Below, in pieces: positions 8,013 through 44,163 of a DNA stretch of 44,163 bases. The DNA lies in the IMG/VR virus record IMGVR_UViG_3300037606_000121, positions 1 through 44,163 of that record, one strand, 5' to 3'. The position numbers were made by a program, and so were the translations under genes. The stretch's first letter is position 1. Each line of letters opens with the position of its first letter. Below the pieces are notes generated by a model. It made no database searches, was not told the origin of the DNA, and saw only the letters and a list, made by a program, of their open reading frames with translations. The stretch is from a virus.

Positions 8013-8054
8013 AAAAAAACCTTGCTCAACAGGTAGTCGCTGTTGAGCAAGGTT
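8013..8054 (-). terminator. Strong rho-independent terminator ending the early operon
   Basis: A perfect 15-bp stem (8018-8032 with 8040-8054) has a 7-base loop. In minus-strand RNA it is followed by seven U (A-run 8013-8019 on the plus strand). It lies about 60 bp past the stop of the 102-aa gene, so it closes the transcript that starts near 20.4 kb. Confidence 0.85.
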
Positions 8055-8115
8055 CAAAAACGGGATTGACTCCCGGAATTCGCTTTGTTGTGGCCGACTA
8101 CGCCAGGCGCGAACA

Positions 8116-8424
8116 TTAACGATTCAGATTGCCGCTGTCAATATCGACTCTTACAAATTCTGCCCGCACCAAACTAATCTCCGACATATTCCGATTGCGA
8201 ATGTCACGCCCAAACATGCGTATCGGTGACACTCTCAGGATATCATACACCCTGCCCAACTGTGTCGCGTTGCCGCATTTCGTCAGTTGGATGCGGACCG
8301 TATCGACCAGCACGAACTCATCGACAATCCCACTTGGTGCCATCGCACCAGGTGGGATCTCGCCGCCGCCCAACTGAGTGAGCGTTGCCTCTAGTTTCGC
8401 TTTGTGGTACCTAGACGCTGCCAT
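8116..8424 (-). CDS. Hypothetical protein, last gene of early operon
   Basis: 102 aa from the ATG at 8422-8424 with AAAGGA upstream; a further upstream ATG lacks a ribosome site. The middle (VLVDTVRIQLTKCGNATQLG) is beta-rich. I do not recognise a family. It overlaps the preceding coiled-coil gene by 14 bp and is followed by the 8018-8054 terminator. Confidence 0.6.
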   Translation of the reverse strand: MAASRYHKAKLEATLTQLGGGEIPPGAMAPSGIVDEFVLVDTVRIQLTKCGNATQLGRVYDILRVSPIRMFGRDIRNRNMSEISLVRAEFVRVDIDSGNLNR

Positions 8425-34869: not shown

Positions 34870-36343
34870 TCGTGGATCCTGCCTGTGTTGCGTTGGCCGT
34901 GTTTTCGACTTGTGCCATGGATGCCATCGCGCCTTTGTCATTGAAAATTGAATGCAGCAGGATCTTCCTCATCGTGGCTTCATCGACTCCGTAATCCTCT
35001 GCCATTTTCGGCAGATGGTCGTCGAGGTCGTAGCCGTCCTCCGAATAGACCATTGACAGCGTGGCCTGTCCTGTCTTCAGTCGTGTCGCAACGGCGTCGG
35101 CTTTTGCGCCTTCGTCTGCGACCGGATGAGACGGCCAATCCCATTCATGGGCAGGCATCTGTCCAGGGATTTTGATCCAGCCAAAACGCAATGAAGCCTC
35201 TTCGAACCACATTTCAAATAACGGGTCGAGAACCAAATCGTCACCGTCTTCACGCTCGACATCGATCTGCATGTAGTACGGCGTGAAATCGAGCTTGCCG
35301 CTCGCAAAGTTGTGCCCGCTTGAATCGCCCGCCGCGAGGTTGTACGGCATGTTTTTTGGCCGTCCCTGTTCGCTGACCTGAGCGCGATGAAACGCCTCGT
35401 ATGTCGCGTTCGGGTGTTCTGATTTCATCTGGCCAGCGTCCCAGCCCATTGGCAACGCGACCATCATTCGTTTCTGGAATTCGATGGCACTGAATGGAGC
35501 CGCAAGATCGGCACCATCATCAGGCGACATTTGAGTCTTCAGCAGCACTGATATGTCAGCAGCCGATTCAGCAGCCGCAAGCGTGGCCTCTCGCCAACGT
35601 CGTGACGATGCCCCGGTGTTCATCGAAGACCTGAGTTCTGGGATTCCGCGATGCTGGCCGCCGCGACGCATTGAGAACCAATGCAGAACGAATGCCGCCG
35701 GGATCTGATCGGCCTCGAATGCCGAGTGCGTCCATTGCGCCCCAGGATGGTATGGCAGGATGTCGTACCACAGCGGATTGCCATATGTGTCAAATCGAAT
35801 GCCGTCGATATAGCCTTCGATGCCTGCATTGAGGTACGGAGTTTGGCATTGCTCCGTCTCGATGACTGACAGATCCAATTTGACGGCGTGCTTAACGCCG
35901 GGATTGCTTTTCAAGATCGCGAACGATTCGCCGTCACTCATTTTTGCGTGAGACATCACCCACAATTTGCGACGCAACTTGACGGCCTTCGACCACGTTT
36001 TCCATTCCATCTCAACCATCGCGTTGAAAACTTTGGAAGCAGTTTTCATTCGCAACGACGGCCCGACTCCAACGGTATAATTTGCGTGAGTCTGGACCAT
36101 GCCATCAACGTAAGCATTGCTGCCGATCTCGTATCGTGAGCGGCTAACGAGCTTCTCGCGAACGCCCCGTGATGCTGATGAATTTGCATCAAGTGAATCG
36201 GCAGATGACCAGTAATTTTTGTACTCGTTAGTCGATCCGGCAGCGTCGAACCGAGCGCGGATTGCAGGCGAATCGCCATCGAAAGCGCGAGGCGTTGGCT
36301 CTGTCTTTTTTCGTGTGACGAATCGTTTCAGGGCGGCAAGCAT
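34859..36343 (-). CDS. Portal protein (lambda gpB-like, phage_portal_2)
   Basis: 494 aa. GSNAYVDGMVQTHANYTVGV, SDGESFAILKSNPG, LSVIETEQCQTPYLNAG, FVLHWFSMRRGGQHRGIPEL and AAGDSSGHNFASGKLDFTPY are blocks of lambda-family portals. Coupled to the 67-aa gene by TAATG. The portal forms the 12-subunit DNA channel at the capsid vertex. Confidence 0.9.
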   Translation of the reverse strand: MLAALKRFVTRKKTEPTPRAFDGDSPAIRARFDAAGSTNEYKNYWSSADSLDANSSASRGVREKLVSRSRYEIGSNAYVDGMVQTHANYTVGVGPSLRMKTASKVFNAMVEMEWKTWSKAVKLRRKLWVMSHAKMSDGESFAILKSNPGVKHAVKLDLSVIETEQCQTPYLNAGIEGYIDGIRFDTYGNPLWYDILPYHPGAQWTHSAFEADQIPAAFVLHWFSMRRGGQHRGIPELRSSMNTGASSRRWREATLAAAESAADISVLLKTQMSPDDGADLAAPFSAIEFQKRMMVALPMGWDAGQMKSEHPNATYEAFHRAQVSEQGRPKNMPYNLAAGDSSGHNFASGKLDFTPYYMQIDVEREDGDDLVLDPLFEMWFEEASLRFGWIKIPGQMPAHEWDWPSHPVADEGAKADAVATRLKTGQATLSMVYSEDGYDLDDHLPKMAEDYGVDEATMRKILLHSIFNDKGAMASMAQVENTANATQAGSTNAP

Positions 36344-36546
36344 TAGCCTGTTCCCCCCGGTACGATCTTCGAGAACCGCAAACCCATGTGGTTGCGATTG
36401 CCGGCAGTTTTTGACGCAACATGATTGTCAGCTTTGATGAGCTGATCCATGTCGTGCTCTTCAATCGTGCGGCCTGCTTCTGCGGTCTTTTTCGGACCGA
36501 GTGCGGCTTGCGTGATTGCGTCGATGATGGTTTCTGGAGCTGCCAT
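36343..36546 (-). CDS. Small head protein, gpW-position
   Basis: 67 aa: a helical MAAPETIIDAITQAALGPKK and a C-terminal MGLRFSKIVPGG strand-turn. It stands immediately before the portal, where short head-tail connector (gpW-like) proteins sit in lambda-type phages. The exact role is not shown. No clear ribosome site precedes its ATG. Confidence 0.55.
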   Translation of the reverse strand: MAAPETIIDAITQAALGPKKTAEAGRTIEEHDMDQLIKADNHVASKTAGNRNHMGLRFSKIVPGGTG

Positions 36547-36599
36547 GCCGCAGATACTGGCACAATTGGCAGCGTGTTTGTTATTTTTTCCTCGTCATG

Positions 36600-36615
36600 T
36601 TTCCAGCGCTGGAAA
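36600..36615. promoter_or_regulatory. 16-bp perfect palindrome upstream of the portal block
   Basis: TTTCCAGCGCTGGAAA is a perfect palindrome between the terminator at 36626-36658 and the 67-aa gene. It may be an operator. I see no convincing promoter around it. Confidence 0.4.
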
Positions 36616-36625
36616 TGTTGAAACG

Positions 36626-36658
36626 AAAAAAGGCAGCACGGTTGTCCGTACTGCCTTT
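36626..36658 (-). terminator. Strong rho-independent terminator after GCC array A
   Basis: Stem AAAGGCAG/CTGCCTTT (36629-36636 with 36651-36658) with an inner ACGG/CCGT, loop TTGT, followed on the minus strand by a T-run. It separates the arrays and duplicated genes from the portal-capsid genes, which must be transcribed by read-through or another promoter. Confidence 0.85.
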
Positions 36659-36659
36659 A

Positions 36660-37300
36660 CCTTGCCCCGCCCCGCCATGCCCTGCCTTGCCACGCCCCGC
36701 CTTGCCTGCCACGCCACGCCAAGCCTCGCCACGCCTCGCCTGCCAAGCCTTGCCACGCCTCGCCTCGCCGAGCCTTGCCTTGCCTGCCTCGCCTTGCCCA
36801 GCCACGCCCTGCCAAGCCGAGCCGAGCCTTGCCTGCCACGCCTCGCCTTGCCACGCCTCGCCTCGCCTTGCCACGCCTTGCCTTGCCTGCCATGCCAAGC
36901 CAGGCCGAGCCATGCCGTGCCCCGCCTTGCCTGCCATGCCAGGCCGAGCCATGCCGTGCCTTGCCGCGCCTTGCCCCGCCTTGCCTGCCAAGCCCTGCCC
37001 AGCCATGCCCTGCCTCGCCACGCCGCGCCTGCCATGCCTTGCCCAGCCTTGCCAAGCCTCGCCCCGCCGCGCCTGCCCTGCCAAGCCGCGCCCAGCCGAG
37101 CCAAGCCTAGCCTCGCCACGCCTGCCACGCCTCGCCGCGCCCCGCCCCGCCGTGCCTGCCAAGCCAAGCCAGGCCTCGCCAGGCCCAGCCTTGCCTGCCC
37201 CGCCAAGCCCAGCCATGCCACGCCCTGCCACGCCACGCCACGCCAAGCCTTGCCCTGCCTCGCCACGCCCCGCCGTGCCTTGCCTGCCTCGCCTTGCCTA
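36660..37300. repeat. GCC-pentamer array A
   Basis: About 130 units of GCC separated almost always by two bases (NNGCC). Every 6-17 units the spacer is a single T, giving GCCTGCC. Fourteen of the sixteen possible dinucleotides occur as spacer; I did not see TG or GG. The minus strand is GGCNN repeated, which also fits a G2N3 quadruplex pattern. Stop codons are almost absent, so long ORFs on both strands are spurious. Confidence 0.95.
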
Positions 37301-37836
37301 CCATGAATCAGACTTGCACAGTCTCCACCAGCGTATCGATTTGTCGCATCACGATTGCCAGTTCTTGCAGATCACGAAACCGATCTCGAAACGAAATCAG
37401 TTCCTTCAACGCCCGCCGCAAAAGATCTGCACGGGTGTCGGGATCTGCCAGCACATCCTCTGCCGTGCGATATACCCGCTTCGTTTCTTCCGTCTTTGTT
37501 GCTGGAGTGCTTATGTGATGATAGACACGCTGTGGCCTGTCAGTGCTGATGTCATCGCGAACCACAACCAGCGAACGCAAGAGAAGCCTACCGACTTCCA
37601 ATCTGTGTTGATGCGCGGCTAGAGCATCGTCCCATTCGAATTCCTTGTGCAGTGGATTACGCTTTGACTCGGCCGCCTGAACGATCTGTTCCGCGTCGAT
37701 GTCGCCTCCGTTCTTGATCCGAATCCGTTCGACCTCTTTGTGAGCCACTGCGGCGTCTGTTTTAAATCGTGAACCTGCCGACCAGTTGATGTCCATTTTG
37801 AAAACTCCTGTGAAAGTGAAATTGAAAAACCATGCC
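37301..37836 (-). repeat. 536-bp exact duplication, copy 1
   Basis: Identical to 38089-38624 (offset 788). Includes the whole 162-aa gene, its stop and its ribosome site, bounded on both sides by GCC arrays. Confidence 0.9.
37308..37796 (-). CDS. Conserved phage protein of unknown function, copy 1
   Basis: 162 aa; ATG at 37794-37796 with AGGAG upstream. MDINWSAGSRFKTDAAVAHK, HKEFEWDDALAAHQHRLEVG and LISFRDRFRDLQELAIVM match a family I know from many siphoviruses near terminase and portal, without a known function. It is helical. The upstream extension through array B is not coding. A second identical copy follows at 38096-38584. Confidence 0.75.
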   Translation of the reverse strand: MDINWSAGSRFKTDAAVAHKEVERIRIKNGGDIDAEQIVQAAESKRNPLHKEFEWDDALAAHQHRLEVGRLLLRSLVVVRDDISTDRPQRVYHHISTPATKTEETKRVYRTAEDVLADPDTRADLLRRALKELISFRDRFRDLQELAIVMRQIDTLVETVQV

Positions 37837-38088
37837 TGCCATGCCTTGCCCTGCCCAGCCAAGCCAAGCCCAGCCGCGCCTGCCATGCCATGCCATGCCA
37901 AGCCTGCCAAGCCGCGCCCCGCCCAGCCCTGCCAGGCCGTGCCATGCCTTGCCTGCCTCGCCTTGCCCAGCCAAGCCCTGCCAAGCCCCGCCCTGCCATG
38001 CCCCGCCCAGCCTCGCCCGGCCATGCCGAGCCGTGCCTGCCATGCCGCGCCTTGCCCTGCCTTGCCCGGCCCTGCCTTGCCAAGCCTG
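37831..38088. repeat. GCC-pentamer array B
   Basis: About 50 NNGCC units with occasional single-T spacers, between the two copies of the 162-aa gene. Same architecture as arrays A and C. Confidence 0.95.
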
Positions 38089-38624
38089 CCATGAATCAGA
38101 CTTGCACAGTCTCCACCAGCGTATCGATTTGTCGCATCACGATTGCCAGTTCTTGCAGATCACGAAACCGATCTCGAAACGAAATCAGTTCCTTCAACGC
38201 CCGCCGCAAAAGATCTGCACGGGTGTCGGGATCTGCCAGCACATCCTCTGCCGTGCGATATACCCGCTTCGTTTCTTCCGTCTTTGTTGCTGGAGTGCTT
38301 ATGTGATGATAGACACGCTGTGGCCTGTCAGTGCTGATGTCATCGCGAACCACAACCAGCGAACGCAAGAGAAGCCTACCGACTTCCAATCTGTGTTGAT
38401 GCGCGGCTAGAGCATCGTCCCATTCGAATTCCTTGTGCAGTGGATTACGCTTTGACTCGGCCGCCTGAACGATCTGTTCCGCGTCGATGTCGCCTCCGTT
38501 CTTGATCCGAATCCGTTCGACCTCTTTGTGAGCCACTGCGGCGTCTGTTTTAAATCGTGAACCTGCCGACCAGTTGATGTCCATTTTGAAAACTCCTGTG
38601 AAAGTGAAATTGAAAAACCATGCC
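38089..38624 (-). repeat. 536-bp exact duplication, copy 2
   Basis: Identical to 37301-37836. Sequence identity stops where the flanking arrays diverge. Confidence 0.9.
38096..38584 (-). CDS. Conserved phage protein of unknown function, copy 2
   Basis: 162 aa, identical in protein and DNA to the gene at 37308-37796. Same AGGAG ribosome site, ATG at 38582-38584. Perfect identity implies very recent duplication, gene conversion, or an assembly effect. This copy is transcribed first. Confidence 0.75.
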   Translation of the reverse strand: MDINWSAGSRFKTDAAVAHKEVERIRIKNGGDIDAEQIVQAAESKRNPLHKEFEWDDALAAHQHRLEVGRLLLRSLVVVRDDISTDRPQRVYHHISTPATKTEETKRVYRTAEDVLADPDTRADLLRRALKELISFRDRFRDLQELAIVMRQIDTLVETVQV

Positions 38625-39318
38625 GTGCCATGCCATGCCAGGCCCCGCCCTGCCGCGCCTTGCCTGCCATGCCACGCCCCGCCCAGCCCTGCCGTGCCTG
38701 CCATGCCAAGCCGCGCCCAGCCGAGCCAAGCCTAGCCTCGCCAGCCGAGCCACGCCACGCCTCGCCGCGCCTCGCCAAGCCAAGCCAGGCCCTGCCCCGC
38801 CTGCCACGCCAAGCCCGGCCATGCCAAGCCCCGCCGTGCCTGCCTCGCCCTGCCAGGCCCCGCCGAGCCACGCCACGCCTGCCCTGCCCTGCCGAGCCCT
38901 GCCCCGCCCGGCCATGCCCTGCCCGGCCTGCCAAGCCCTGCCGAGCCAAGCCCGGCCTCGCCCCGCCATGCCCTGCCCGGCCTGCCATGCCAAGCCCGGC
39001 CTTGCCGAGCCAGGCCCTGCCTCGCCCCGCCATGCCTGCCACGCCGCGCCTCGCCTCGCCACGCCTGCCAAGCCCAGCCTTGCCGAGCCCTGCCCGGCCA
39101 TGCCCTGCCCGGCCTGCCACGCCGCGCCTCGCCATGCCACGCCGCGCCACGCCTGCCATGCCTTGCCAGGCCCAGCCTTGCCCGGCCCCGCCTTGCCTGC
39201 CATGCCGCGCCCTGCCCGGCCGAGCCAGGCCCTGCCCGGCCCTGCCATGCCCTGCCCGGCCTGCCATGCCAAGCCCGGCCTTGCCCCGCCAGGCCTTGCC
39301 TCGCCCCGCCATGCCTGC
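38619..39318. repeat. GCC-pentamer array C
   Basis: About 140 NNGCC units; single T (and once a single A) spacers occur. It contains CGGCC and AGGCC units more often than array A, and shares with array A (around 37081 and 38706) a stretch of more than 30 bases, showing exchange between arrays. Confidence 0.95.
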
Positions 39319-39324
39319 CAATCA

Positions 39325-39975
39325 CTACGCCTGTTCTTCCTTCACAGCAACACTGCTGTCCAGTTCGAAACGGCCATATTCGCCACCCTTTTCAGGTCGC
39401 CACTCGCCAACGCCAACGCCGAAGCCAGCCCGGTCAAGCAAGTTACACAGGTCGCCCACTTGAAGCCAGCCCGTATCAATCACGAACGAAATCGTAACGG
39501 CCCAACGAAAGAAATACGGACGGTAGCGAAGGTCTGTCGAACCCTGACCGACGCGAACGGTATCCTCCCGAATCTCCGGTTCGTCGCAGTCCAGCTGAAT
39601 GACGCCGTTGCGGTCATTGCAGACAATGAAGACAGCTTTTTTCACCAGCGTCTTTTCAACGCCAATATCCTTGTGTGCCGCCGTGATCATTGCCGACTTG
39701 ATCGCCATCGCCGGGATGCCGTACTTGCCAGACTCAGTGCGATACGCTGCCCTTTCGCCTTCGCCTTTCGGGTCTCGAATCTCACGCGTCTTGGTCTTTT
39801 TCCCAGCGTGCTTGTCCCGCATCATCGACTTGGCTTTTTCGTCCCATGCGTGCTGAATTAGTGGGGACGTGCCGACGATTCGCAGAGTCACTTTCCGCTT
39901 TTGGATCGGCGGTAGTTTTACTGCTGATTCCAGTGGTTCTTCTGTTGTCAGTGCTTTTTCTTTTGCCTTCGCCAT
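39325..39975 (-). CDS. Hypothetical phage protein downstream of the structured leader
   Basis: 216 aa from the ATG at 39973-39975 with GGAG upstream. The longer reading includes the leader and terminator and is rejected. It begins MAKAKEKALTTEEPLESAVK; then VTLRIVGTSPLIQHAWDEKA and KYGIPAMAIKSAMITAAHKD, a pattern I know from uncharacterised phage/prophage proteins. Mixed alpha/beta. The function is unknown. Confidence 0.65.
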   Translation of the reverse strand: MAKAKEKALTTEEPLESAVKLPPIQKRKVTLRIVGTSPLIQHAWDEKAKSMMRDKHAGKKTKTREIRDPKGEGERAAYRTESGKYGIPAMAIKSAMITAAHKDIGVEKTLVKKAVFIVCNDRNGVIQLDCDEPEIREDTVRVGQGSTDLRYRPYFFRWAVTISFVIDTGWLQVGDLCNLLDRAGFGVGVGEWRPEKGGEYGRFELDSSVAVKEEQA

Positions 39976-39989
39976 GATACTTACTCCAT

Positions 39990-40031
39990 AAAAAAACCCG
40001 CGTCTGAAAGTGCAAGTTTCAGAGCAGGTTT
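39990..40031 (-). terminator. Intrinsic terminator within the leader
   Basis: In minus-strand RNA, TCTGAAA pairs with TTTCAGA and, past a one-base bulge, AAACCTGC with GCGGGTTT. Seven T follow. The seven-base loop is CTTGCAC. It lies 15 bp before the 216-aa gene's start codon, so it must be bypassed for that gene to be made from the near promoter. Confidence 0.88.
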
Positions 40032-40063
40032 TCCATTTGCGGCCGAAGCCGCGAAACAACCAT
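40019..40063 (-). CDS. Leader ORF of 14 codons
   Basis: MVVSRLRPQMENLL from an ATG at 40061-40063 with AAGGGG seven bases before. Its TGA lies in the 5' arm of the terminator stem, so a ribosome ending here would cover that arm and prevent folding. Confidence 0.5.
   Translation of the reverse strand: MVVSRLRPQMENLL
40039..40052 (-). promoter_or_regulatory. cUUCGg tetraloop hairpin in the leader
   Basis: GCGGC-TTCG-GCCGC, a 5-bp stem closed by the extra-stable C(UUCG)G loop, inside the leader ORF and before the terminator. Confidence 0.75.
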
Positions 40064-40096
40064 TGAATCACCCCTTGCACGAGTGACTGAACCCGA

Positions 40097-40125
40097 ATAA
40101 TAGCAACGTATCTAGCCGGTGTCAA
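40097..40125 (-). promoter_or_regulatory. Consensus sigma-70 promoter
   Basis: Minus strand TTGACA (40125-40120), 17 bases, TATTAT (40102-40097). The -35 overlaps the last codons of the zinc-ribbon gene. Predicted +1 near 40090, giving a leader of about 100 nt to the terminator. Confidence 0.85.
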
Positions 40126-40361
40126 CCTCGTTTTTCCACATCACGCAAGATCGTCTCGACAGACTCCGTGGACGTCAGGATCTTTCGCCCGCAGTGACGA
40201 CACTGTTTGTATCGCACCATCACTGCATGGCCCTGAGAGCTGCGATATACCCGCAGATCTCGACACCCGCACGTCGGGCACGATATTCCACTGCCTGCCT
40301 TAACCTCAATTTCCAACGCCTGCATTGCCATCTCCGCGAGTGTTTTTCGTGCCTCATCCAT
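40122..40361 (-). CDS. Zinc-ribbon protein
   Basis: 79 aa. Helical N-terminus, then CPTCGCRDLRVY and CRHCGRKI, two CxxC pairs that form a zinc ribbon. It overlaps the terminase stop by 8 bp. Similar small proteins with a Com- or InsA-like ribbon occur in phages as nucleic-acid binders. Confidence 0.7.
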   Translation of the reverse strand: MDEARKTLAEMAMQALEIEVKAGSGISCPTCGCRDLRVYRSSQGHAVMVRYKQCRHCGRKILTSTESVETILRDVEKRG

Positions 40362-42366
40362 TCTGCTGTCCCGCCATTTCGCGCAATGACATTGGCTCGC
40401 GTTGACGCTGTTTCTTCGCCGTCATTGACAGCATCGCTTCGCCTGCACAGATCGCTGAATACGTTGCGTCTAGCCAGTGATTGTTTCTGTCAACACGTTC
40501 CCAGACAATCACCGTTCCACGACCGTCAATGAATTTTTCAACCTGCTTTTCTGCCGTCAGATGTTTCGAAAATTCCGCGTGCTCCGAGAAGCTTGCTGCC
40601 TGATACAACGTCACGGCCAACGGCTCTTCGGCTGGCATCAACAGCCGCTGATGTAGTTCGGATTTCCAATTGTCCGCGTTCATGTGTACCAACATCACGC
40701 CCGGAACAGTGCGACCGTTGCGCTTGACTTTCGCTATATGGAATTCGTTGCCGAGATACAAAATGCTTTTCTGTTTCGCAGTCGGTGCAATGTATCGTGT
40801 CGTGCGTCGCTGCCCTTCACCATAGCCTTTCGATGGTCGATATATCTCAGAACCGACCGGCAGCTTTTGCAGTTGATTTGCCGCCGCGCAAAACTCATAG
40901 ACTGCGTCTGTGTGCTCATGCCATCCGCTGTCGATCCACACTTGCGAAGGCTTAACCGCTTCGCCGTTTTGCTTGTGCCAGCCGTCCGCAAAGTACTGAG
41001 ACAACTCGACCAACGCCTCGACCAGCGCACGCCGCACGCCGAGCTTATCGGCTGCGACCGGATGTTTTCCGTACTCGATTACTCGCCCGCCGCTGCCCGG
41101 TCCAACGGCAACCGCAGTCCAATGCAATGCACGCTTTCCTGTGTCGATACCGATCGCAATCCCGGTTGCGTCGTCTGGCACAACGCCCTTTTTCAATTCG
41201 CTCGAGCGCTTCTCGATCGTCTCCGCATCCAACGGCGTCAACTCAATATCTGGTGGATCGTATGGCAGCGTCCAAACGAACTGCCGCATTTTCTTCTCAG
41301 CGTTTTCATGGTCGCGTGCCTTCGCCGCCAGCCACTCTTCAGCACCCAGATCGCCAGCCGTCACGAATGGATTGTCAATTGCCGACCACCGAAACCCAAG
41401 CGTCTGCGTCTGCGGAGCTTTGCCGGTGATGACTCCGTCTGCTGTGATCTCCTGACCTGCGTGGACCAAGACGACACTTTTGGCCGATTGCAATCGATCC
41501 TCATCAGTCCAGACTTCGGCACATTCCGGACAAGCGAACGCCGCTTTCAACGCCGCTTCTTCCTCCGATTCTGATTCCTGCCAGCCGACCAAATGCTCCC
41601 GCTCCGGCGCAACATAGACGCCGCATTTTGGGCATGGCCGAAGAATTCGCGAGTCTGTCCCCCGCTTGATTTCCTGCCAGATCCGGCCCCGTTCAATCGA
41701 GACAGTACACTCCAAATAGATCCGCTTTCCACGCCGACCGAAGGCGCGTGTTCGTGCCTCAATCTGTTCAATCTTGTCGGCTTCCCGGCTTGTCTCGCTT
41801 GAGTCTTCCATGCCGTCAGTCTCAGTAATCGCGACGACTCTGGACGTGTACGCTGCCCGTTTTTTATCGTTGCCGCCCGCTGTCATGAATCGCATTGTGG
41901 CACCATTGCGAAACCGGATACCACGCTTGACCTGACCGCCGCGCGAACCCTCACCGGATGTCGGCAGTAGGTCTCTGTATTCGCTGGCTTCAATGACAGG
42001 CAAGAAGTCCTCGGTCCACTTATCGTTTGCCATGTCCATTGTCGGCAGTCCGACGATGACAGTTTCGCCCATCTCAAATAAATGGTACAGCACCGGAATG
42101 ACATAACACATCAGCGTCTTCCCGTTTTGCGTCGGCCCCGTAGCTGCGACACGGCTCCACTCTGCCGAATCAATCGCGTCGAAATACAGTCGCGATACAG
42201 GATGGCGATAGTGTCGATATGGCTCGCCAGCGAACGGCCCGTTGGGAAGCACGATGCACGCCTCTGCCCACTCGGCCATCGATCTGACGACCGGTGCAAC
42301 TGACAAATCGAGACACCAGAACGCTGTCTCGGAAAGTGGCTCATGTGATAAATCGAGCACGCTCAT
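40354..42366 (-). CDS. Large terminase subunit, GpA family
   Basis: 670 aa from the ATG at 42364-42366, an ATGA overlap with the small subunit. Walker A-like GPTQNGKT near residue 80, IVGLPTMDMANDKW, TETDGMEDSS Walker-B region, a zinc pair CPKC..CPEC, and nuclease-domain GIAIGIDTGKRALHWTAVAV with WIDSGWHEHTDAVYEFC. GpA terminases pump DNA and cut at cos sites. Confidence 0.93.
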   Translation of the reverse strand: MSVLDLSHEPLSETAFWCLDLSVAPVVRSMAEWAEACIVLPNGPFAGEPYRHYRHPVSRLYFDAIDSAEWSRVAATGPTQNGKTLMCYVIPVLYHLFEMGETVIVGLPTMDMANDKWTEDFLPVIEASEYRDLLPTSGEGSRGGQVKRGIRFRNGATMRFMTAGGNDKKRAAYTSRVVAITETDGMEDSSETSREADKIEQIEARTRAFGRRGKRIYLECTVSIERGRIWQEIKRGTDSRILRPCPKCGVYVAPEREHLVGWQESESEEEAALKAAFACPECAEVWTDEDRLQSAKSVVLVHAGQEITADGVITGKAPQTQTLGFRWSAIDNPFVTAGDLGAEEWLAAKARDHENAEKKMRQFVWTLPYDPPDIELTPLDAETIEKRSSELKKGVVPDDATGIAIGIDTGKRALHWTAVAVGPGSGGRVIEYGKHPVAADKLGVRRALVEALVELSQYFADGWHKQNGEAVKPSQVWIDSGWHEHTDAVYEFCAAANQLQKLPVGSEIYRPSKGYGEGQRRTTRYIAPTAKQKSILYLGNEFHIAKVKRNGRTVPGVMLVHMNADNWKSELHQRLLMPAEEPLAVTLYQAASFSEHAEFSKHLTAEKQVEKFIDGRGTVIVWERVDRNNHWLDATYSAICAGEAMLSMTAKKQRQREPMSLREMAGQQNG

Positions 42367-42869
42367 TCCGACACCACGTCCATGACCGCCGCCCGGCAAG
42401 ATTCAAGCGTTTCATTGACGGTTGCCGCTGCATCCGGACCGAATCGTTTTCCCAATCGCTCGCCCATGCGACGGACCAGGACGGCCCAACGGCCGAAGAT
42501 ATCGCGTGCCTTGTCACGCTCGATCAGTTGCCCCTTTCTCATTTCAAGATCCAGCTCGGCCAGTTTTGCTTTGGCGAGCCGATATCGCTCAAGCGAGGGA
42601 CTGTCGCCGCCTTCACCGAGCAGCGGATCGTCATCCCATCTTTTCCACGGCCCATCTGCCCGCAACCATTGCGCAATTAAATCTAAACTCCAATTTCCTT
42701 TCTTGCCCGGCATTCCTTGTTTTGCCCAGTTCTTGACGGTGTCAATTGAGACGCCAAAAAACAGACATACCTCTTTTTGTGTCTTGCATGTCCATGCGTT
42801 TTCCTTGGCGTGTGTTTCCTCGCTGTCTGTTTTCGTGGTGTTTTGCTTTGATCGCTCTGCGAAAAACAT
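42363..42869 (-). CDS. Small terminase subunit (Nu1-like)
   Basis: 168 aa. An HTH at about residues 33-60 (TQKEVCLFFGVSIDTVKNWA) recognises DNA. ERYRLAKAKLAELDLEMRKG is the Nu1/terS coiled segment. Overlap with the large subunit supports the pair. Confidence 0.85.
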   Translation of the reverse strand: MFFAERSKQNTTKTDSEETHAKENAWTCKTQKEVCLFFGVSIDTVKNWAKQGMPGKKGNWSLDLIAQWLRADGPWKRWDDDPLLGEGGDSPSLERYRLAKAKLAELDLEMRKGQLIERDKARDIFGRWAVLVRRMGERLGKRFGPDAAATVNETLESCRAAVMDVVSE

Positions 42870-42873
42870 GGAC

Positions 42874-43224
42874 TCACTTCACAAAGTCTTTCATCTGTTT
42901 AACCGCCCTGAGCGCGTTCGCGTAGTCGCCTATTTCCAGCATTCTTCGGTAAAGATCTCGCGTTGCCTCAAAACACCAACCTTTAATAAGATCAGTATCT
43001 GCGCCTGCGATTGTTTCAAAATGATTCCCTGCGTTTGCCAAAACTGAGCCGACGTTTACACCGGGGTGTTTTTCGGCAAATGCTTCCATTATTTGCGCAC
43101 CGCTTGCGCCTTGGAGCATCCAATCGACCACGTCACTTGTTGCTTTGCTTACATCTCTTTCGCAAAGTGCCGCTCGATTACTCCTGCCTTTTCGGTCGCC
43201 AGTGTCGATTTCTGGTTTGTCCAT
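42874..43224 (-). CDS. Small packaging-region protein
   Basis: 116 aa. C-terminal KGWCFEATRDLYRRMLEIGD then YANALRAVKQMKDF is a helical pattern seen in proteins preceding terminases. The first 25 codons overlap the upstream gene in another frame and the start has no clear ribosome site, so the true start may be internal. Confidence 0.55.
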   Translation of the reverse strand: MDKPEIDTGDRKGRSNRAALCERDVSKATSDVVDWMLQGASGAQIMEAFAEKHPGVNVGSVLANAGNHFETIAGADTDLIKGWCFEATRDLYRRMLEIGDYANALRAVKQMKDFVK

Positions 43225-43811
43225 ATTTCATCGAATATCGTGTTGTGAAACTTGCACATGTCCGGATCGTTTCGAAGCATGAAGTTTTCGAAACGTGGAT
43301 TGAAATTCAGATTCATCGACGTGGGGCAAATTACGTCCCACTCTGCATTCTGCAGCATGAAGAATTTTGCGTGATTCTTCCCAACTCGAATTGAATCAGG
43401 GCCGCAGATGTTTCTGATTCGCTGAGCCAACGCTGGCGATCTTGTCTGAAATGTATAGTCAACCAGCCAACGTGAGCTTGTGCATTTCTGATCTTGCACA
43501 AAATCAATCACTGTTGTGACGTCAGTCGTTGCTGCTGTCCAGGTTGATACGGTTAGAGCTGCAGGTCCAGTGATTGCCAGCACGGCCTCCATGATGTCGA
43601 TAATCGAAAACTGACCCTTTGTGAATCCATAGATTTCGATCTCCTTGTTGAATCCTTCGATTGCCTCTTTGGCAGTGGCTTTTCTGCGAAGGTCTCGAAT
43701 GTCTCTTTTGTGCGTGTTTTGTGCAACTCGGATTGTTGGCGACGTGATGTCTTCCAACGGAAAAACTGGATCTGTTTTCTCAAACAGCAGGGGGTTTTGC
43801 GTCGTTTTCAC
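43149..43811 (-). CDS. Phospholipase D-like domain protein
   Basis: 220 aa from a GTG at 43809-43811 with GGAG eight bases before, chosen over upstream ATG/TTG starts. KGQFSIIDIMEAVLAITGPA, VSTWTAATTDV, RWLVDYTF, GKNHAKFFML and SMNLNFNPRFENF match a PLD-like family near phage terminases with HxK and SxN features but only one copy. Nuclease or DNA-binding activity is possible; degenerate sites are common in this family. Confidence 0.7.
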   Translation of the reverse strand: MKTTQNPLLFEKTDPVFPLEDITSPTIRVAQNTHKRDIRDLRRKATAKEAIEGFNKEIEIYGFTKGQFSIIDIMEAVLAITGPAALTVSTWTAATTDVTTVIDFVQDQKCTSSRWLVDYTFQTRSPALAQRIRNICGPDSIRVGKNHAKFFMLQNAEWDVICPTSMNLNFNPRFENFMLRNDPDMCKFHNTIFDEIWTNQKSTLATEKAGVIERHFAKEM

Positions 43812-43986
43812 GTAATCGGCTCCATTCAATAAATGCAATTGTGTTTCTGACCGTGGATTCGATTTTGTGGCTTGGCGTTTTCTTATCCTGGCTGCGCAGA
43901 AACTCAATCAACGTCGGTGTTATCGTGATTGTGAATCGAGTTTTTCGCTCACCAAATTCAGACGGTCGACCGGATTTTTTTTCCAT
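43780..43986 (-). CDS. Small basic regulator (RHH-like)
   Basis: 68 aa from the ATG at 43984-43986; an in-frame upstream ATG (44035-44037) overlaps the inverted repeat. Sequence KKSGRPSEFGERKTRFTITI then TPTLIEFLRSQ resembles ribbon-helix-helix proteins (basic arm, strand, two helices). It may bind the inverted repeat at 44029-44061 and control the packaging operon. It overlaps the next gene by 32 bp. Confidence 0.55.
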   Translation of the reverse strand: MEKKSGRPSEFGERKTRFTITITPTLIEFLRSQDKKTPSHKIESTVRNTIAFIEWSRLRENDAKPPAV

Positions 43987-44028
43987 TAGCCAGCACTTGC
44001 AAATAAATCGAAAATGATGTTCGATTGT

Positions 44029-44061
44029 ATCATACACAACTTATCGTTAATTGTGTATGAT
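44029..44061. promoter_or_regulatory. 11-bp perfect inverted repeat upstream of the first late gene
   Basis: ATCATACACAA (44029-44039) and TTGTGTATGAT (44051-44061) with an 11-base spacer; half-sites are 22 bp apart, two DNA turns. A TATGAT that could be a -10 is in the arm, so this is a likely operator-promoter for the late packaging genes. Confidence 0.65.
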
Positions 44062-44146
44062 GGAATGAGCCTTTCCTTTGTGTTTATTGAAACTTGGCAT
44101 GGGGTAGTATTTCCAGTTCAAGTGCTACACATGCGAAAGTTATTGG

Positions 44147-44163
44147 CTGGGGATTAGATGACC
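44147..44163. repeat. Right copy of 17-bp terminal direct repeat
   Basis: Same 17 bases as 1-17. See the left copy. Confidence 0.85.

Follow-up and report, generated by a model that had tools for sequence, protein, structure and literature searches.

Fully complementary hairpin loops of 6–7 nt occur in the ColE1 RNAI/RNAII and pT181-type regulators, and in pT181, one of the kissing partners controls termination. Among phages, lambda makes the 6S leader from pR'-tR', with Q loading via promoter DNA, and put of phage HK022 is a structured 5' RNA linked to terminator read-through. We know of no kissing pair between a 5' hairpin and the terminator in the lambda pR' or AlpA systems. Type III toxin-antitoxin loci are laid out as promoter, RNA, terminator and gene. 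As far as the accessible parts of the sources go, LoaP leaders are structured 5' RNAs at operon heads that are tied to terminator read-through (PMC12691694), the Racr RNA-based anti-CRISPRs copy CRISPR repeats (PMC10651486) and the VIPR systems consist of a phage RAMP protein with alternating GGY/NN guide RNAs that repress competing phages (PMC13142463, a 2026 preprint).

We analysed a leader found in a 44-kb virus record with terminase, portal and capsid genes, called here the window (the whole stretch of 44,163 nucleotides). Like AlpA of Pseudomonas, as presented in the parts of the sources at hand (PMC7969949, PMC9371919), the leader combines a strong promoter, a short terminated transcript and one or several controlled genes. 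Lambda pR'-tR' (the 6S leader) has this layout too. Here, however, a phage carries several such short elements, and every element has a loop pair of its own. Whereas the ColE1 and pT181 partners are two RNAs transcribed from opposite strands, both hairpins belong here to one RNA. Complementarity to the terminator loop, a feature of the present leader, was not found described for put or LoaP in the accessible parts of the literature. The likeness to the VIPR systems, as outlined in part of the preprint, lies in the downstream gene and the GGC/NN arrays (PMC13142463), and the main text of that preprint makes no mention of a terminator, leader, hairpin or kissing interaction. With Racr, on the available portion of the source, the locus shares a phage-encoded small RNA and the involvement of a RAMP protein (PMC10651486); in contrast, the leader RNA here adjoins the phage's own RAMP gene. 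Our literature search, which had most subscription papers outside its reach, found no leader with a 5' hairpin kissing its terminator, and this structure is apparently undescribed so far.

Two leaders in the window

The first element, on the minus strand, is flanked by a 79-aa gene upstream and a 216-aa gene downstream (Table 1). The 79-aa gene follows the large terminase gene, belongs to phrog_5602 and codes for two CxxC motifs, as seen by reading; our search found no relatives of its product. A sequence-only reading of the region had listed a TTGACA-N17-TATTAT promoter, a 14-codon ORF, a cUUCGg hairpin and a terminator with T7, and all of them are present on the minus strand. That the ORF stop lies in the terminator arm was also borne out, the TGA codon falling within the 5' arm, and the terminator loop CTTGCAC is indeed the exact complement of the upstream GTGCAAG. 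The same reading had placed GTGCAAG over the Shine-Dalgarno sequence of the leader ORF; AAGGGG is touched only marginally, but the complementarity stands, GTGCAAG being the complete loop of the first hairpin, HP1. It had further suggested an RNA of roughly 100 nt whose loop can pair with ribosome sites. The terminated RNA is predicted, but the conserved partner of the terminator loop is the HP1 loop of the same RNA.

Table 1. Features of the two elements and of the locus that follows the first one (window coordinates).
Feature	Coordinates	Strand	Basis or remark
Sigma-70-like promoter TTGACA-17-TATTAT, TGn ahead of -10	40097..40125	-	Consensus match 11/12
Promoter boxes	-35 TTGACA 40125-40120; -10 TATTAT 40102-40097	-	17-nt spacer
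HP1, 8-bp hairpin with 7-nt loop GTGCAAG	40066..40088 (loop 40080-40074)	-	Fold
Leader frame MVVSRLRPQMENLL, 14 codons	40019..40063	-	ATG 40063-40061, TGA 40021-40019; not conserved
HP2, spacer hairpin GCGGC-UUCG-GCCGC	40039..40052	-	Fold
Intrinsic terminator and T7	39990..40028	-	Hairpin 40028-39997; T7 39996-39990
Terminator loop CTTGCAC, 7 nt	40016-40010	-	Complements entire HP1 loop
ATGGAG adjoining the T run, likely Shine-Dalgarno sequence of the downstream gene	39984..39989	-	Sequence
216-aa Vipr (RAMP/Cas7-like) homologue, phrog_4652	39325..39975	-	Profile and structure model
GGC/NN repeat (vrRNA-like) arrays, three blocks	36656..39316	-	33 runs of at least 4 repeats
phrog_15946, first copy, between arrays	38096..38584	-	Listed ORF extends upstream into array
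13-pair terminator-like hairpin closing the last array	36629..36658	-	Simple scan
Second element, promoter TTGACA-17-TAATGT	8013..8141	-	Covariance model, then reading
Second element, HP1 loop GTAGTCG	8101-8095	-	
Second element, HP2	8075-8061	-	
Second element, terminator loop CGACTAC and T7	8039-8033; T7 8019-8013	-	

The window leader is 101 nt long, and none of 200 shuffles was as stable as its fold (-41.2 kcal/mol, z -3.69). The sequence thus far described supports a promoter-driven, terminated RNA of ~100 nt directly ahead of the 216-aa gene. A simple scan of positions 36000-44163 gave no raised number of promoter-like sites (4 versus 3.0 expected) or terminator-like sites (6 versus 8.6 expected); the terminator of the element itself was missing from that list, presumably because of its internal loop. 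No Rfam 15 family matched the window at gathering score. The elements of L083, L106, L108, L109, L110 and L026 similarly gave no family, with two tRNAs as the only matches, and raising the limit to E 10 yielded only chance-level matches. Neither the exact terminator sequence, sought in viral contigs, nor the leader DNA, sought among records of phages and plasmids, gave a match.

The second element was detected at 8014-8107 (23.3 bits, E 0.0046, 30 sources) by R1, a covariance model built from seven leaders without any loop-loop term. Its loops, GUAGUCG and CGACUAC, are complementary at 7/7 positions, though R1 ignores loop-loop pairing. Only an unconfirmed 42-codon frame lies behind it, in otherwise ~270 bases without an assigned gene. 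Weak R1 matches (18.2 bits; L114 4543-4649 and L115 1176-1282) were rejected, as they show an ordinary terminator following a gene and no visible promoter or HP1.

A family of leaders with their own loop pairs

Eleven distinct elements of the promoter-HP1-terminator design are known, including the two of the window. Among the terminase relatives that share the gene order of the window, the nearest is L083, and it has all three parts. GGCUAG faces CUAGCC in L106 and a terminator loop containing CUAGCC in L083, GGCGAG/CUCGCC is found in L108, L110 and L114/L115, and L109 and L026/L044 have GGCAAG/CUUGCC and GAUAGGC/GCCUAUC, respectively. Scans of further record pieces revealed second elements with UGACAG/CUGUCA in G001 and AUACGAG/CUCGUAU in G004/G005.

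The promoters of all 11 elements score 8–11 of 12, with spacings of 16–17, and their -10 boxes end 10–19 nt upstream of the HP1 loop, so that HP1 would start approximately at the transcription start. Leader lengths range from 71 to 114 nt. Nine elements have a hairpin at the HP2 position, with 60–72 nt from loop to loop; it is missing from both G001 elements, where this distance is 39–42 nt. Except for one element, a frame begins 0–20 nt past the T run (10/11), mostly behind TGGAG, the frame of the second window element counting among these with its 42 codons only. A GGC array stands between the terminator and vipr in L026/L044.

Based on these comparisons, the loop-loop match is a real structure, because related phages keep the design with different letters. 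Each of the eight distinct loop pairs matches over 6–7 bases, whereas none of the 56 cross pairs reaches 6. Across the seven elements that align, pairing holds in 139 of the 140 stem cells and in all 42 kissing cells, and the HP1 pairs are retained in 35/35 cells. Double-sided changes affect 13 stem positions and two of the six kissing positions, and outside these seven elements, the whole loop pair is replaced. These helix counts rest on arms set by hand for the seven elements, with the four others left out; reading showed the MAFFT alignment to be one base out of register at the window terminator. Covariation in related phages, which the sequence-only reading had proposed as a check, is thus seen in the loop pair, both across relatives and between the two copies within one phage. 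That reading had also raised the case of relatives without the complementarity, and all the leader-bearing relatives that we found retain it. Many relatives of the 216-aa gene are devoid of the entire leader, among them L002, which at 65% identity is the closest.

A scan with fixed criteria of 760 kb (20 record pieces and the window, both strands) identified 11 matches at 10 places, all with promoters of at least 8 of 12; it counts the L181 place twice and misses L083 and L175 no. 2. By comparison, 15 dinucleotide-shuffled sets gave a mean of 0.067 matches per set, none with a promoter of at least 8/12, and the control scan gave no match in 100 other loci (L002-L104 minus L026, L044 and L083; 1.87 Mb, both strands). 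Other scans, with looser criteria, also yield chance-like matches without a promoter.

The relatives were collected mostly via the downstream protein and the DNA shared with those relatives. As the search started mainly from the downstream protein, it overstates how often vipr follows the leader. Elements are carried by two of the 80 loci kept from the downstream-protein search (L026 and L044) and by one of 51 terminase relatives (L083); many of the loci are short. They accompany six of seven relatives of the L083 downstream protein, L111 having only 240 bases upstream. Searching with the window-type leader pattern also retrieved the contig of L110 and no other; pattern matches in L112 and L117 were discarded as other DNA without the leader. 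The promoter, leader, GGC array and vipr of L026 (4730-5060) and L044 (4725-5060) form one common block flanked by different upstream DNA, as if it had been moved as a cassette.

The operons behind the leaders

The 216-aa protein belongs to phrog_4652, annotated as of unknown function. Its family profile, A6, matched PDB chain 36pp_D, 'SUSP1 Vipr protein', with an E value of 2.3e-18, and the protein alone (P0001) matched the same chain with E 8.8e-06. The AlphaFold2 model of the protein, computed from 23 sequences (pLDDT 88.6), matched Csm3/Cas7 RAMP proteins in Foldseek with a probability of 1.00 and a best E value of 4.5e-07, and showed a Csm3-like fold (Z 12.0, rmsd 3.6 over 155 residues).

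The arrays that follow the gene span ~2.7 kb with little coding and include 33 GGC/NN runs of at least 4 repeats, 24 of which have at least 8. The runs are often joined by GGCAGGC and may perhaps represent a staggered array. Two phrog_15946 genes interrupt the arrays and are candidates for vap, by position only. With a Vipr homologue and GGC/NN guide arrays behind it, the leader heads what is a probable VIPR locus of ~3.5 kb (36629-39975, minus strand). The leader itself differs from a VIPR vrRNA and is not one, as no tract of 9–16 GGY/NN was found by reading in 40088-39990. Decoding of 24 runs with 1-nt skips against 3.8 Mb of sequence was no better than with other spacings; the true targets are probably outside that sample.

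The arrays lie on the same strand as the element in all six element-bearing records examined, and they are missing from two records without an element. GGC/NN arrays without a kissing-loop leader adjoin the vipr homologue in L002 (4770-4940) and L111 (1-240) and, upstream of the gene, in L076/L077. Behind vipr in L083 (2900-3280), L106 and L108, a constant stretch, caccaacggtgca..tggtggcgtatccgcgat, separates the GGC/NN arrays and is possibly a vrRNA tail. In L082, L123 and L124, the terminase gene is followed by a zinc-ribbon-like gene and then by portal-like genes, whereas leader, vipr and array are all missing; by this comparison, the VIPR block seems to have been inserted between these genes.

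Genes of the 216-aa family are located behind the leaders of the first window element, L083, L106, L108, L109, L110 and L026/L044. Other leaders precede different genes: in G001 no. 2 a ParB-like/methyltransferase fusion, in G004/G005 no. 2 a helicase with a methyltransferase behind it and, in L114/L115, whose leader has the L108 loop code, a 265-aa phrog_5931 protein with a LIDGQHR motif instead of vipr, after which comes a 302-aa protein with repressor/sigma-like matches. Thus, the leader is not specific to VIPR, since other operons carry it too, and most relatives of the gene are without it.

Proposed conditional termination and competing readings

The reading that we favour, with slightly more confidence than doubt, is that of a cis-acting leader at the heads of phage operons that serves as a conditional terminator tuned by loop-loop pairing. 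The leader would probably gate the genes downstream of it. Promoter and terminator are present in all 11 elements, consistent with the layout of a promoter-proximal conditional terminator. Because the next frame begins no more than 20 nt after the T run in nearly every element, there is no room for a second promoter, which makes the operon-head conditional terminator the best reading; the gene would then be expressed only via read-through, from the leader promoter or from upstream. According to this model, a strong sigma-70 promoter would fire a leader of 71–114 nt ending at an intrinsic terminator directly ahead of the first gene's ribosome site, and expression would depend on read-through. 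As the terminator loop emerges, the 5' hairpin would pair with it over 6–7 bases and so tune termination, and the terminated leader RNA would be made in excess. Each copy in a phage would use its own loop pair and thereby avoid cross-talk, the different loop codes among copies in one phage arguing for action in cis.

Pseudoknot-free folds of the growing transcripts are informative in this respect. In 8 of the 11 elements, the loop-loop helix attains P >=0.94 at one step or another and dominates in the few steps before the terminator 3' arm is complete; at completion the terminator replaces it (P 0.79–1.00). Since it dominates just before the terminator closes, the helix could act while termination is being decided. 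Nevertheless, this transient helix stays at P <=0.38 in the first window element, L106 and L109, which counts against the conditional terminator, as do the second window element, with no convincing gene close behind, and L026/L044, in which an array intervenes. No mutually exclusive antiterminator hairpin appears in the full-length folds of the 11 elements, so these do not reveal an attenuator switch of the classical type, and no antitermination protein was recognized among the window proteins scanned, a subset of the frames. It is possible, if somewhat doubtful, that these leaders make up a previously unrecognized family of RNA switches in phages. The 5' hairpin would read the loop of the oncoming terminator by a private kissing code of 6–7 bp, this co-transcriptional pairing would decide termination at each operon head, and one of several orthogonal copies would gate VIPR.

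The second window element and L026/L044 speak for a stand-alone small RNA gene. Its kissing pair would tie the 5' hairpin to the 3' terminator and make a compact, nuclease-resistant RNA of ~100 nt acting elsewhere, with the gene living on leak or upstream transcription. A unit that is complete from promoter to terminator, the position of HP1 at the transcription start and the compact fold also fit this description. We nevertheless regard it as unlikely: a frame lies at most 20 nt past the T run in 10/11 elements, the loops vary between elements and thus offer no common target sequence, and we noticed no conserved unpaired seed. Rather less probable still is an antitermination leader of the put, LoaP or Q type, whose 5' RNA or promoter DNA would load a factor or modify RNA polymerase so that it passes the terminator and the lengthy, untranslated GC-rich vrRNA arrays. 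In its favour are the long, scarcely coding arrays of the window, the same architecture ahead of several operons and the similar layout of lambda pR'. AlpA, in the accessible parts of its description, also couples a strong promoter with a promoter-proximal terminator (PMC7969949, PMC9371919). However, the promoter spacers show no conserved DNA motif by eye, no factor was recognized among the scanned window proteins, and the leader also heads operons that showed no array (L114/L115, G001 no. 2 and G004 no. 2).

The sequence-only reading had put forward translation-coupled attenuation, which we now consider very improbable. The 14-codon frame of the window, with its AAGGGG and its stop inside the terminator arm, is suggestive, and L110 has a frame of 9 codons at the same place. 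Yet these two are the only ones among the 11 elements with an ATG frame of at least 8 codons that has a Shine-Dalgarno-like sequence and ends before the T run; the other nine have no such frame, the two peptides are unrelated, and no alternative antiterminator appears in the full-length folds. This lack of conservation of the leader peptide is what makes attenuation by translation unlikely. Hardly credible, finally, is a DNA-binding site whose inverted repeat merely resembles RNA structure. GTGCAAG and CTTGCAC are inverted repeats in DNA as well, but in every element, the complementary stretches are hairpin loops over covarying stems, one of them followed by a T run, and their sequence differs from element to element. 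Considered on account of the RAMP fold, a Racr-type CRISPR-repeat mimic and a type III toxin-antitoxin system were dropped in view of the Vipr match and of the similar leaders ahead of unrelated genes in L114/L115, G001 no. 2 and G004 no. 2.

To return to the conditional terminator, leaders of that kind are common; what has no counterpart in Rfam or in the literature searched is the covarying kissing tie between a leader hairpin and its own terminator loop, with copies inside one phage that use different codes. The leader would join in one RNA a promoter-proximal terminator and a kissing pair resembling the ones that set plasmid copy number. It may offer a clean test case for cis control of intrinsic termination by loop-loop pairing, as well as a naturally occurring set of orthogonal parts, and it is a candidate control element for the VIPR locus.
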